Source of the DNA: Gammaproteobacteria bacterium
GTDB taxonomy: Bacteria; Pseudomonadota; Gammaproteobacteria; GCA-001735895
Assembly (NCBI GenBank): GCA_029862125.1
Contig: JAOTXY010000035.1
Span: 1 to 32,598, forward strand
Direction of reading: 5' to 3'
Length of the DNA: 32,598 nucleotides
A program made the translations under genes and the position numbers. Of this stretch, positions 8,882 through 32,578 are shown piece by piece. Numbering within the stretch: the stretch's first letter is position 1; the number at the start of each line of letters is the position of its first letter. Below the pieces are notes generated by a model, which worked only from the letters and a program-made list of their open reading frames with translations, made no database searches and was not told the origin of the DNA.

Positions 8882-9298
8882 TTACGAACCGGTGAGTGTA
8901 ATCGTCAGGTTACGGCGATGAGCCCGGTAACGGTGCTCCCACAAAAATAGACCTTGCCAGGTGCCCAGCGCGAGCCTTCCGGCCTGGATTGGGATAGTGA
9001 TTTCGGACTGGGTTAGCACCGAGCGGATATGCGCAGCCATATCGTCGGGACCTTCCTGGTCATGCCGGTATGCAGGGTCTCCGTCGAGTACCAGTTTAGC
9101 AATATAGTTTTCGAGATCCCGGCGCACATCGCTATCCGCGTTTTCGGTAATTATCAGCGAAGCGCTGGTGTGATGTACAAAAACATGGCAAAGCCCCTGC
9201 ACAACTCCGGACGCTCGCGCCACCTCTTCAACCTCGCGAGTAATATTGATCGTCGCGCGTCCCTCGGTTTGTATCGAAATCGTCTCCTGCTCAATCAT
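8882..9298 (-). CDS. yjbQ: YjbQ family protein (UPF0047)
   Basis: The 138-residue protein matches the YjbQ/UPF0047 family in length and motifs: HVFVHHTSASLIITENAD in the first half, GDPAYRHDQEGPDDMAAHI in the middle, and GTWQGLFLWEHRYRAHRRN near the end. The conserved histidines suggest a small metal or phosphate site. Some members have been reported to have weak thiamine-phosphate synthase activity, but the true cellular role is unsettled. The gene lies 92 bases from adk on the same strand. Its upstream side faces the repeat-rich spacer at 9299-9724, which therefore separates it from nadB. Confidence 0.9.
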   Translation of the reverse strand: MIEQETISIQTEGRATINITREVEEVARASGVVQGLCHVFVHHTSASLIITENADSDVRRDLENYIAKLVLDGDPAYRHDQEGPDDMAAHIRSVLTQSEITIPIQAGRLALGTWQGLFLWEHRYRAHRRNLTITLTGS

Positions 9299-9351: not shown

Positions 9352-9489
9352 ATAGCCACCTCGGTATATGTCCCGCAAAAGGCGCTCCCAACCGGCGCTT
9401 GCGCGCCGGTTGGTCCATCCATGGAATCGCTTGGACCTCGGCATCCATGCCTCGGTACACTTTTGCGGGACATATACCGAGGTGGCTAT
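9352..9489. repeat. structured inverted-repeat element A with 30-bp perfect arms
   Basis: The arms at 9352-9381 and 9460-9489 are perfect 30-base reverse complements enclosing a 78-base core. Inside are a perfect 11-bp stem (9388-9413) and, on the minus strand, two mini-hairpins with the pattern CATGGATG: GGCATGGATGCC (9440-9451) and TCCATGGATGGA (9414-9425). The whole can fold into a long stem with a branched head in DNA or RNA. It contains no plausible gene. It resembles element B in architecture and core motif but, apart from a shared GGTATAT in the left arms, has different arm sequence. It is not an attC site or a transposon with a coding region. Confidence 0.85.
9388..9413. repeat. 11-bp perfect hairpin inside element A
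   Basis: CCAACCGGCGC at 9388-9398 pairs perfectly with GCGCCGGTTGG at 9403-9413 across a four-base loop. It is GC-rich and has no T tract on either strand, so it is a stable structure but not a classical terminator. Confidence 0.8.
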
Positions 9490-9561
9490 TAATACAAATC
9501 TTGGGTGTGCTTCAAAAATCTATTCTTCGAAAGCGATCAATATGAATTTTGGCACAATCGA

Positions 9562-9687
9562 GGCGAAGGCCCGGGTATATCTTTTCAGAACGCTGCGCAA
9601 CAGGGATGTTGTGATACGGCACTCCGGGCGCGAGCCTACATGGATGTATTAACGGCGCTTCTGAAAAGATATACCCGGGTTTTCGCC
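9562..9687. repeat. structured inverted-repeat element B
   Basis: A perfect 21-base inverted repeat (9570-9590 with 9659-9679) extends to 29 bases with only two mismatched positions (9562-9590 with 9659-9687). The 68-base core carries two mini-hairpins on the plus strand: CAACAGGGATGTTG (9598-9611) and TACATGGATGTA (9637-9648). These share the CAKGGATG pattern (K is G or T) seen on the minus strand of element A, so A and B appear to be oppositely oriented members of one family. Element B lies 38 bases beyond the nadB stop and could shape the 3' end of nadB mRNA, though no T tract follows it. Confidence 0.82.
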
Positions 9688-9724: not shown

Positions 9725-11341
9725 TTAGATCGAGGCGAGCTTGGCTGGGCTTTTTTTGAGTTGGCTGGGGTCGAGTATGGTTGGGGCCAGGAACTTGTCG
9801 CTGGATTCCGGGTAGTCGAGGGTGAAATGCAGGCCACGACTCTCCTTGCGCATCAGCGCTGAGCGGATGATCAGGTCAGCAACCACGACCAGGTTACGCA
9901 GCTCCAGCAGATCGGGCGATACCTTGTAGTTGCCGTAGTACTCGTTGATTTCACTTTTCAGCAGCTCGGCACGGTGAAGTGCCCGCTCCAGCCGCTTATT
10001 GGTGCGTACTATGCCGACGTAATCCCACATGAAGCGCCGCAGTTCGTCCCAGTTGTGTGCCACCACGATGTCTTCATCCGAATCGGTAACCTTGGACTCA
10101 TCCCAGCGCTCGAGTGCCGGTAAGGCGGTCGTGGTATCGATCTCGGCGGTGATATTACTGGCTGCCGCCTGCGAAAACACCAGGCATTCGAGCAGCGAGT
10201 TGCTGGCCATTCGATTGGCCCCGTGCAGACCCGAGTAGGCTACTTCACCGACGGCATACAAATTCTCCAGGTCAGTGCGACCATTCATATCGACCATCAC
10301 GCCACCGCAGGTGTAGTGGGCTGCGGGTACGACGGGTATCGGTTGTTTGGTGATGTCGATATCGAAGTCCAGGCATCGCTGATAAATGGTTGGGAAATGT
10401 GATTTGATAAAAGCCCTGCTTTTATGGCTGATGTCGAGATACACGCAATCGATGCCGAGACGCTTCATCTCATGGTCAATGGCGCGCGCAACGATATCCC
10501 GCGGCGCGAGCTCTGCGCGTTCATCGAAGCGCTCCATGAAACGTTCGCCGTTGGGCAGCAATAATTTGCCACCTTCGCCACGTATCGCTTCGGTAATCAG
10601 GAAAGACTTTGCCTCCGGGTGATAAAGACAGGTCGGGTGGAACTGAATGAATTCCATATTGGCGACGCGACATCCGGCACGCCAGGCCATTGCAATGCCG
10701 TCACCGGTTGAGCCATCGGGATTACTGGTATAAAGATAAACCTTGCTGGCACCGCCGGTGGCCAGGATTATCTTACGAGCCCTGAACACGTCGACACGCT
10801 GACTCTTTCGATTAAAGGCATAAAGGCCGGCGCATTTCTGCTGCTTGTTAATCAGGTCGATCGCCACGTGCTGATTGAATATTTTAATGTTGTCGCGTTC
10901 GAGTGCGTGTGCTTCCAGCGTTTGTTGAAGAGCCTTGCCTGTGGCGTCGGCAGCATGTACAACCCGGCGGCGGCTATGTCCGCCTTCGCGAGTCAAATGA
11001 AAACCGCTGCTGCTGATATCCTGGCGATCGCGCGAAAACGGCATGCCCAGGTCTGCGAGCCATTCGATATTTTTCCTGCCGGCAGCGGCACAAAATTTTA
11101 CCACCGATGCGTCACACAGGCCGGCACCTGCCTCGATTGTATCGAGGGTATGCTGGTCGATACTGTCTTCAGGCTCGAGCACTGCCGAAATCCCGCCCTG
11201 CGCCCAGTAGCTTGAGTGCTGTTCACCGGGCGTTTTGGCAAGAATCGCGATCTTTAGCGATGTCGGCAAATGCAGCGCTGCTGACAGGCCGGCTGCGCCA
11301 GAACCGACGATGATTACGTCAAATTTAGATTGAATCGGCAT
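9725..11341 (-). CDS. nadB: L-aspartate oxidase
   Basis: NadB oxidises L-aspartate to iminoaspartate with FAD, the first step of de novo NAD synthesis; NadA uses the product. The FAD-binding motif VIIVGSGAAGLSAAL is near the N-terminus. Flavoprotein signatures typical of the succinate dehydrogenase/NadB family follow: YWAQGGISAVLEPEDS, GGHSRRRVVHAADATG, FIQFHPTCLYHPE, and the C-terminal FAD site AVGEVAYSGLHGANRMASNS. I placed the start at the ATG at 11341, which gives 538 residues (E. coli 540); the frame is open to 11389, but those residues are not part of the family. An AGGG sits just upstream. The gene is divergent from rpoE, as in E. coli, and its downstream spacer holds elements B and A. 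Confidence 0.95.
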   Translation of the reverse strand: MPIQSKFDVIIVGSGAAGLSAALHLPTSLKIAILAKTPGEQHSSYWAQGGISAVLEPEDSIDQHTLDTIEAGAGLCDASVVKFCAAAGRKNIEWLADLGMPFSRDRQDISSSGFHLTREGGHSRRRVVHAADATGKALQQTLEAHALERDNIKIFNQHVAIDLINKQQKCAGLYAFNRKSQRVDVFRARKIILATGGASKVYLYTSNPDGSTGDGIAMAWRAGCRVANMEFIQFHPTCLYHPEAKSFLITEAIRGEGGKLLLPNGERFMERFDERAELAPRDIVARAIDHEMKRLGIDCVYLDISHKSRAFIKSHFPTIYQRCLDFDIDITKQPIPVVPAAHYTCGGVMVDMNGRTDLENLYAVGEVAYSGLHGANRMASNSLLECLVFSQAAASNITAEIDTTTALPALERWDESKVTDSDEDIVVAHNWDELRRFMWDYVGIVRTNKRLERALHRAELLKSEINEYYGNYKVSPDLLELRNLVVVADLIIRSALMRKESRGLHFTLDYPESSDKFLAPTILDPSQLKKSPAKLASI

Positions 11342-11367
11342 GACTACCCTGGGTAGAAGTTCGACCC

Positions 11368-11394
11368 AGTATAGTGAAATCCTTCGCATCTCAA
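11368..11394 (-). promoter_or_regulatory. possible nadB promoter
   Basis: On the minus strand TTGAGA (11389-11394) and TATACT (11368-11373) are separated by 15 bases, slightly short for a sigma-70 promoter. The -10 element is good and lies about 27 bases before the nadB ATG. A perfect CTACCC-T-GGGTAG palindrome (11344-11356) sits between it and the start codon and could be an operator. Confidence 0.4.
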
Positions 11395-19817: not shown

Positions 19818-20713
19818 TTGACGAGTTTCAATGTGGTTACGTTGCACTGATTGGCAAACCCAATACCGGCAAATCGACATTGATGAATGCGCTAGTCGGT
19901 CAAAAACTCAGTATTACTGCGCACCGGCCACAAACCACCAGGCATCAAATTCTCGGTATCAAGACAACCGAGAAATACCAGTGTATTTTTATTGATACCC
20001 CGGGGATTCACGATAACAACAAAAAAGCGATCCACCGCTATATGAATCGTGCCGCAACCAGTATGCTGGATGATGCCGACCTGATATGTGTACTGCTCGA
20101 CGTTTCTCATTTCAACCAGGACGATGAAAAAATCCTGCAAAGAGTTGCACGCTATGACCGGGTTTTGATTGTGCTTAACAAGATCGATCAAAAAAGTCGC
20201 GAGTCCTGCCTGCCGATAATGGATCAAATCTCAAAGCAGGTTCCAGGATTCGAATGTGTGCCGGTGTCGGCCCTTACCGGCGATAACCTGGAGTACCTCG
20301 AGCAGCTTATAGTCGCCCGCCTGCCCGTTGGTGTACCGCAATTTCCAGACGATCAACTGACGGATAAATCGATGCGATTTATCAGTGCGGAAATCGTGCG
20401 TGAAAAACTGTTCCGCGAGCTCAAACAGGAATTACCCTATTCAATCACGGTTAACATAGATCACTACATCGAGGAGACGGATATCACGCGTATATCGGCA
20501 ACCATCTGGGTTGAACGTAAATCGCAAAAATCGATCGTCATCGGTAAAAGCGGAAACCTGTTGAAAAAGGTCGGATCGCTGGCGCGCAGTGATATAGAGC
20601 GACTGATAGATGCAAAAGTCTATCTGCAGCTGTGGGTGAAAGTTCGCGCTGACTGGTCTGATGACGAACAGTCGCTGGCAGCCTTTGGTTACTCGGATGG
20701 AACCCAGGGTTAG
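19814..20713 (+). CDS. era: GTPase Era
   Basis: Era is an essential GTPase that binds 16S rRNA near its 3' end during assembly of the small ribosomal subunit. G1 is GKPNTGKST near residue 15, G3 is DTPGIHD, and G4 is NKIDQK. The G2 effector region is RPQTTRHQILG. The C-terminal KH domain carries IVIGKSGNLLKKVG and ends with AKVYLQLWVKVRADWSDDE. Its 299 residues match E. coli Era (301). The ATG overlaps the rnc stop by 4 bases, and the recO start lies inside the last 17 bases of era. Confidence 0.97.
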   Translation: MIDEFQCGYVALIGKPNTGKSTLMNALVGQKLSITAHRPQTTRHQILGIKTTEKYQCIFIDTPGIHDNNKKAIHRYMNRAATSMLDDADLICVLLDVSHFNQDDEKILQRVARYDRVLIVLNKIDQKSRESCLPIMDQISKQVPGFECVPVSALTGDNLEYLEQLIVARLPVGVPQFPDDQLTDKSMRFISAEIVREKLFRELKQELPYSITVNIDHYIEETDITRISATIWVERKSQKSIVIGKSGNLLKKVGSLARSDIERLIDAKVYLQLWVKVRADWSDDEQSLAAFGYSDGTQG

Positions 20714-32501: not shown

Positions 32502-32578
32502 TGGTGTCCCCGGCAGGAATCGAACCTGCAACCTACGCCTTAGGAGGGCGTCGCGCTATCCAGTTGTGCCACGGGGAC
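32502..32578 (-). tRNA. tRNA-Arg (anticodon CCT)
   Basis: On the minus strand a full cloverleaf is visible: acceptor GTCCCCG pairing with CGGGGAC, a D arm around TGGCACAACTGGATAGCGC, an anticodon stem ACGCC/GGCGT with loop CTCCTAA (anticodon CCT, reading AGG), a short variable loop and a T arm with GGTTCGATTCC. The CCA end is encoded (32502-32504). The 3' end lies 45 bases before the FAD oxidoreductase start on the same strand. Confidence 0.96.

Follow-up and report, generated by a model that had tools for sequence, protein, structure and literature searches.

Decoy RNAs such as CsrB, CsrC and RsmX/Y/Z concentrate many sites in one sRNA gene or a few, and the REP/BIME sequences of enterobacteria and Pseudomonas are dispersed inverted pairs of hairpin units of about 20-40 bp, located mostly 3' of genes. 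The elements described here have features in common with both systems. As at CsrA/RsmA sites, GGA is placed in short hairpin loops, but each element holds only two such sites, the family occupies dozens of loci and no promoter-like site was found at the pair analysed. With REP/BIME, the elements share a scattered arrangement of hairpin units as inverted pairs, mostly 3' of genes; in contrast, their units are about 110-245 bp long with branched cores and arms that are free to vary, and they have no clear tie to Y1 (RAYT) transposases. The closest relative is the Rfam family TwoAYGGAY (RF01731), listed in 2010 as a probable RNA from gut samples, Gammaproteobacteria and Clostridiales (PMC2864571) and proposed to be a CsrA-binding sRNA with a poorly conserved external stem (PMC4333381). 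This external stem corresponds to the arms of the elements seen here.

The window, i.e. the whole 32,598-nt stretch of gammaproteobacterial DNA that was analysed, contains two elements separated by a 72-bp spacer (9490..9561) and facing outward. Element A (9352..9489; type A, TwoAYGGAY-like, sense strand minus) is closed by 30-bp arms at 9352..9381 and 9460..9489, which pair at 30/30 positions (100% complementary) with 78 nt between them. Its core comprises two CsrA-type mini-hairpins with UGGA loops, both with CATGGATG on the minus strand, at 9442..9449 (stem GGCA/TGCC, loop TGGA) and at 9416..9423, and one long GC-rich hairpin with an 11-bp stem, CCAACCGGCGC / GCGCCGGTTGG (9388..9413, minus). 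Element B (9562..9687; type B, sense strand plus) has 29-bp arms at 9562..9590 and 9659..9687, identified like those of A by an inverted-repeat search, which pair at 27/29 positions (93% complementary) across 68 nt. The B core holds a GGGA-loop mini-hairpin (CAGGGATG at 9601..9608, plus, inside ACAGGGATGT) and a UGGA-loop mini-hairpin (CATGGATG at 9639..9646, plus, inside TACATGGATGTA). Both flanking genes are on the minus strand: a UPF0047 protein gene (8882..9298), presumably yjbQ-type, starts ~54 nt from A, and the gene of an FAD-dependent oxidoreductase with FAD_binding_2 and Succ_DH_flav_C domains (9725..11389), which we take to be the L-aspartate oxidase nadB, has its stop codon ~38 nt from B.

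A sequence-only reading of the locus had described two oppositely oriented repeats with inverted arms and two CA(T/G)GGATG mini-hairpins each. The inverted-repeat and motif counts confirm this description, and the strands and spacings that it gave are exact: A has CAKGGATG on the minus strand at 9416 and 9442 (26 apart), B on the plus strand at 9601 and 9639 (38 apart). When inverted repeats of 22 nt or longer within 300 nt are considered, the window has just one other, much weaker example (23 nt, 74%, at 20349). On both strands, the folds of A and B are far more stable than those of 200 shuffles, with z values of -8.3 to -13.9 for DNA and -8.8 to -12.5 for RNA parameters. CAKGGATG occurs nine times in the window compared to 3.0 expected from shuffles, a count reached by 1 of 100 shuffles; the five remaining occurrences are single and outside both elements. 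The reading had held that the core motif should not be equally frequent without arms. For the bare motif this fails (five outside versus four inside in the window), but same-strand pairs 20-45 apart are found there solely in the two elements. The arms of A and B do share the GGTATAT that it noted, but only four of the 147 armed elements of the four genomes introduced below carry it, the window pair and two further A elements, and the window pair is the only cluster to have it twice. This sharing is a local detail or chance.

A DNA search of the genome of the window returned 44 matching pieces, four of which are the window copy, and 30 further stretches were fetched from this genome. By their cores the elements are of three kinds: A with about 75 or 90 bp, B with 53, 68 or 83 bp, and C, which is larger and has an extra stem. 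Nearly all have two GGA-loop mini-hairpins, and some cores of A, B and C harbour an optional extra mini-hairpin, GGTCCGACGC[A/T]TCGG-like. This module is seen at differing places of the three cores, as if modular (L022, L023, L010, L016, L033 and others). Copies in further genomes were followed with models R1 (type A) and R2 (type B), which score 141.9 bits for window A and 95.4 bits for window B, respectively, with these copies included in the models. At E 1e-5, R1 matches 14 of 57 genomes and R2 20 of 57, the match numbers including cross-hits and antisense hits. The matches listed cover at least 236 non-overlapping places, a set that leaves out 11 R1 and 53 R2 rows, all under 69 bits, with up to at least 31 A and at least 17 B elements in one genome. 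An exact 37-base A core was recovered in 10 stretches, where the named genomes are uncultured Gammaproteobacteria MAGs. Layout and pairing were analysed in a four-genome sample of 91 stretches, 31 from the genome of the window (window included) and 20 each from three relatives, taken among the better hits; it comprises 158 elements, of which 147 are armed. The scan of this genome and its relatives that had been proposed yields many copies, whereas a failure to find further copies would have spoken against a family.

At gathering thresholds, an Rfam search across the window reports a tRNA gene alone (32505-32578, minus, 63 bits). With relaxed thresholds, element A aligns to RF01731 model positions 1-168, not cut off (9496-9345, minus; E 0.0016), with 33.3 bits, which is under the gathering cut-off of 43; B is not reported by the RF01731 search at E up to 10. 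Genome-wide, the same E limit yields 14 RF01731 matches, five of them above the cut-off (66.7, 61.0, 55.5, 52.8 and 46.6 bits). The four best are type-C elements in the fetched loci, and the fifth, C88, is located outside them. Class-wide, 18 of 274 genomes match RF01731 at E 0.001, 14 of them over the cut-off. Compared with AYGGAY, the loops read AUGGAU twice in A, and AGGGAU and AUGGAU in B, and the letters flanking GGA vary across the family. The elements resemble TwoAYGGAY in that a long outer stem of low conservation bears two hairpins with AUGGAU-type loops, and in their occurrence in Gammaproteobacteria, and differ from it by the long GC hairpin in the A core and the AGGGAU loop in B. 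We consider it very probable that the window pair belongs to a family of structured RNA elements that is scattered through the genome and related to TwoAYGGAY. The accessible text of PMC2864571 and PMC4333381 mentions for TwoAYGGAY neither a paired outward layout nor gene-end position or copy number. Among the papers listed on CsrA with repetitive extragenic elements, sponges, intergenic repeats or transposable elements and on TwoAYGGAY/AYGGAY, no title or abstract opening describes this arrangement. The picture here is of a TwoAYGGAY variant that is dispersed, sits in pairs at gene ends, comes in three core types, is under strand-specific selection and has the occupants of its sites replaced over time.

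The arms differ strongly between copies and stay complementary. RNAalifold finds two-sided changes at 31 of the 51 base pairs in A, 25 of 46 in B and 38 of 82 in C. In the B alignment (47 distinct rows), which was fitted to the model and therefore leans towards structure, 98.1% of the cells are paired and the covariation is 0.457, compared to 0.165 for shuffled and at most 0.097 for slid versions. The view of a family kept for its fold, put forward from the two window copies, is strongly supported by these many copies in this genome and its relatives. On the GGATG strand, the 147 armed elements have 3908 Watson-Crick, 152 G.U, 24 A.C and 66 other pairs, with G.U and A.C given equal scores in arm detection. 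The 53 armed elements of the genome of the window alone show 53 G.U versus 5 A.C (p 3.5e-11, with recurrent positions not independent). As a process acting on duplex DNA predicts equal numbers of G.U and A.C, the excess of G.U on the GGATG strand demonstrates that this one strand is selected for its single-strand fold. Changes between orthologous sites were counted in the 48 of 88 same-type comparisons that have homologous arms, the other 40 being set aside. These comparisons contain 137 two-sided compensations, and one-sided changes in either direction involve G.U in 60 cases, A.C in 9 and other mismatches in 19, with 7 of mixed kinds; the counts are not independent events. Among the three options that the sequence-only reading had offered, an RNA structure is best supported, by the strand-specific G.U excess, the TwoAYGGAY match and the CsrA-type loops. 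No observation made here hints at the chromosome-organising site that was another of these options.

A DNA fold of one strand could in principle be the source of a like G.T bias, and this bears on the alternative that survives best, although we regard it as unlikely. Here, the elements would be REP/BIME- or MITE-like repeats, mobile but non-autonomous, and a hairpin-recognising enzyme that acts on a single DNA strand would spread them. Its recognition signal would be the fold with the GGA loops, and the downstream position would only reflect tolerated insertion sites. Consistent with this, single-stranded DNA folding on one strand favours G.T over A.C too, the family is dispersed and multicopy, and sites free of the insertion exist: it is absent from the site equivalent to that of the window pair in at least three more distant relatives, where the aligned gene parts are 6 bp (G015), 59 bp (G017) and 75 bp (G025) apart, compared to 425 bp in the window. 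Occupants of orthologous sites also vary in type (A, B or C), orientation or arms, and truncated remnants are present. The window pair is nearly unchanged in G006, the orthologous site of G020 has A only, and at the G030 site, with a left flank 91% identical, the A arms are unrelated and B, at the contig end, matches poorly. However, most sites are old, as one or more of three relatives have an orthologous counterpart for 29 of the 31 clusters of this genome (for 28 on the basis of both flanks), and the arms go on co-varying in place. The sites are kept while the elements are swapped. The suggestion of a non-autonomous mobile repeat is therefore sustained as far as occupants are replaced over time, but not in that most sites are common to relatives and no mobilising gene emerged from the Y1 transposases searched.

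A Y1 transposase was considered as mobiliser, but Y1_Tnp hits show no clear agreement with element copy number: there is one in the genome of the window and none in G019, which has 13 R1 matches, whereas two genomes with 0 or 1 R1/R2 matches have many hits (G010, 8; G029, 9). An exception is G016, which is rich in both (8 Y1 hits, 27 R2 matches). A phage or plasmid origin was rejected, as the phage and plasmid collections contain no similar sequence, which also argues against mobile repeats. Two rearranged loci were seen by eye. At L089:1539-2122 of G006, the order B, spacer, C, inverted spacer, B seems to be a large inverted duplication centred on C, as if made by strand switching at a hairpin. 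In L112 and L092, a truncated A piece (5' arm and GTGTT) between B and C abuts C, a turnover remnant.

The layout of the elements is strongly biased. In the 91 stretches of the four genomes, neighbouring elements are divergent in 58 cases, tandem in 8 and convergent in none. Among the R1/R2 matches listed the respective numbers are 47, 3 and 0, and inspection by eye of the rows left out of this set, all below 69 bits, brings in one further tandem A-B pair (G020 C3:95174/95315) and none that is convergent. This extends to distant genomes with RF01731 hits (102 hits in six genomes, with pairs in four), where 20 of 21 neighbouring hits are divergent and one is convergent; outward pairing looks general for TwoAYGGAY. 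A rule that pairs always combine two different types was abandoned: it holds for 58/58 in the fetched loci, but 2 A-A and 4 B-B pairs are among the 47 divergent pairs listed, a count made without type C, and one of these B-B pairs (G006 C70) has a C between. Neighbouring elements are most often separated by 8-15 bp, while a second group of gaps extends to 132 bp, and 29 of the 58 divergent pairs have a gap of 20 bp or less, which is too short for promoters.

With genes called by a simple purpose-made hexamer score, 53 of the 92 clusters in these four genomes are located between convergent genes, 32 between co-directional genes and one between divergent genes, while 6 are without a called neighbour on one side. 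The single divergent-gene case is doubtful, as the called gene overlaps the cluster. On the stop-codon side, the median distance to the cluster is 38 nt (140 sides). An element-free baseline of gene orientation is biased in loci chosen for elements, and convergent and divergent settings were compared instead. Since gene strands alternate, convergent and divergent pairs are about equally frequent genome-wide, and the ratio of 53 to 1 thus indicates a strong gene-end bias. A similar bias would also be expected from a mobile repeat that is tolerated solely at a distance from promoters.

The strand of the elements relative to their genes is less simple. Among lone elements in co-directional settings, 11 of 15 are on the strand opposite to the upstream gene, so that read-through from this gene gives the antisense form, which counts against a role at transcript 3' ends. 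The 27 opposite-strand elements in co-directional settings, lone and paired, retain the G.U bias (23 G.U versus 3 A.C). That the bias persists in elements opposite to both neighbours would be expected of independent small RNA genes, CsrB/RsmZ-like decoys with their own promoters instead of mRNA 3' ends. The CsrA-type loops and the proposal of TwoAYGGAY as a CsrA-binding sRNA point the same way, as does a weak terminator-like site that overlaps the 3' end of A (9360-9345, minus; simple consensus at the window pair, 0.6 expected by chance). We nevertheless judge independent sRNA genes to be improbable, given that pair gaps are often 8-15 bp, that a simple sigma-70 consensus finds no promoter-like site in or near the window pair, spacer included, and that each element has just two GGA hairpins.

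The GGA loops provide the link to CsrA. In the model alignments, GGA is complete in 76/77 and 77/77 of the two A hairpins (eight B cross-hit rows dropped), in 46/47 (one further row gapped) and 46/48 of the B hairpins, and in 12/12 and 12/12 of the C hairpins. The letters flanking GGA are variable in five of these six hairpins and vary little in the second hairpin of A. This near-invariant GGA amid varying letters and the presence of two GGA hairpins in all three types are left unexplained if the elements are plain 3'-end stabilisers or bidirectional transcription barriers whose loops bind nothing, which we consider very improbable despite the very strong stems and their position after stop codons and between convergent genes. 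According to the accessible text of PMC7652899, SELEX gives the CsrA consensus RUACARGGAUGU, in which ACA and GGA are invariant and GGA mostly lies in a hairpin loop; a single CsrA dimer bridges two sites that are 10 to 63 nt from each other. The motif spacings are 26 or 41 in A, 23 or 38 in B and 28 or 43 in C, and this overall range of 23-43 would suit one CsrA dimer. The elements thus combine GGA hairpin loops near the SELEX consensus with two sites at a distance within 10-63 nt. The fit is better for the B hairpins, which contain ACAGGGATGT and ACATGGATGT, the former in agreement with the ACA, GGA and GU parts of the consensus, than for the A hairpins with GCATGGATGC and CCATGGATGG, which have GCA or CCA for ACA. 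From these sequence features, a CsrA-type protein probably binds the elements.

The genome encodes a canonical CsrA and a divergent paralog. The paralog has about 62 residues and 43 bits to PF02599 (L164:2042-2227, minus, in G000 C138; also L166, L167, L168, L170, L172 and L173). It is present in G000, G006, G008, G019, G020, G025 and G030, i.e. in all seven same-genus genomes with at least 7 R1 matches, and among the matches listed there is none for the other 24 genomes, four of which are without any CsrA hit. It is more diverged in G020 (69%) and G019 (60%), and in G025 it reads through a stop near the end. As most carriers form one clade in a nadB tree (G030 left out), its co-occurrence with A elements is a lead and not independent evidence. 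Near the divergent-paralog genes, R1 and R2 found no elements, nor did Rfam at five of these loci. Two tandem CsrA-like domains characterise another kind of CsrA paralog (L174:1924-2220 in G023; L171:1973-2269, minus, in G020; partial at L169:23-169 in G008), and a csrA-like gene split into two open frames has probably decayed (L165:2290-2443, minus, in G000 C52).

The reading that we favour, with a probability of roughly 55%, is that the elements are a TwoAYGGAY variant, predicted CsrA-binding RNA elements at transcript ends in both directions that would act as a distributed sponge. The functional molecule would be the RNA of the GGATG strand, in which a long stem, free in sequence if pairing is kept, would present two short GGA-loop hairpins, and both hairpins could be held by one CsrA/RsmA-type dimer. 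With the elements arranged mostly as outward pairs just downstream of stop codons, mainly between convergent genes, a transcript reading through from either side would cross one element antisense and then one sense, leaving one sense copy near its 3' end. There, the sense element may tether CsrA, may shield the 3' end or serve in its processing, or may do both, and many copies together may form the distributed CsrA sponge. This two-sided transcript model is consistent with the outward layout, the promoter-short gaps and the place after stop codons, and is weakened by the lone co-directional elements, mostly opposite to the upstream gene; such opposite-strand elements would need antisense transcription or their own promoters. 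As judged from sequence, the 3'-end sponge or tether role is tentative, and we hold it at somewhat short of even odds.

Since 2010, TwoAYGGAY has remained an orphan RNA family for which a link to CsrA is predicted. A wider and rather doubtful extension is that some gammaproteobacteria may use a genome-wide bidirectional 3'-end code, in which TwoAYGGAY pairs, facing outward at dozens of sites, would equip transcripts from both sides with a dock for one CsrA dimer and couple the ends of many genes to the Csr system, possibly via the divergent paralog accompanying the expansion. The family raises the possibility that CsrA may be titrated by repeats scattered across the genome instead of by a few decoy sRNAs.
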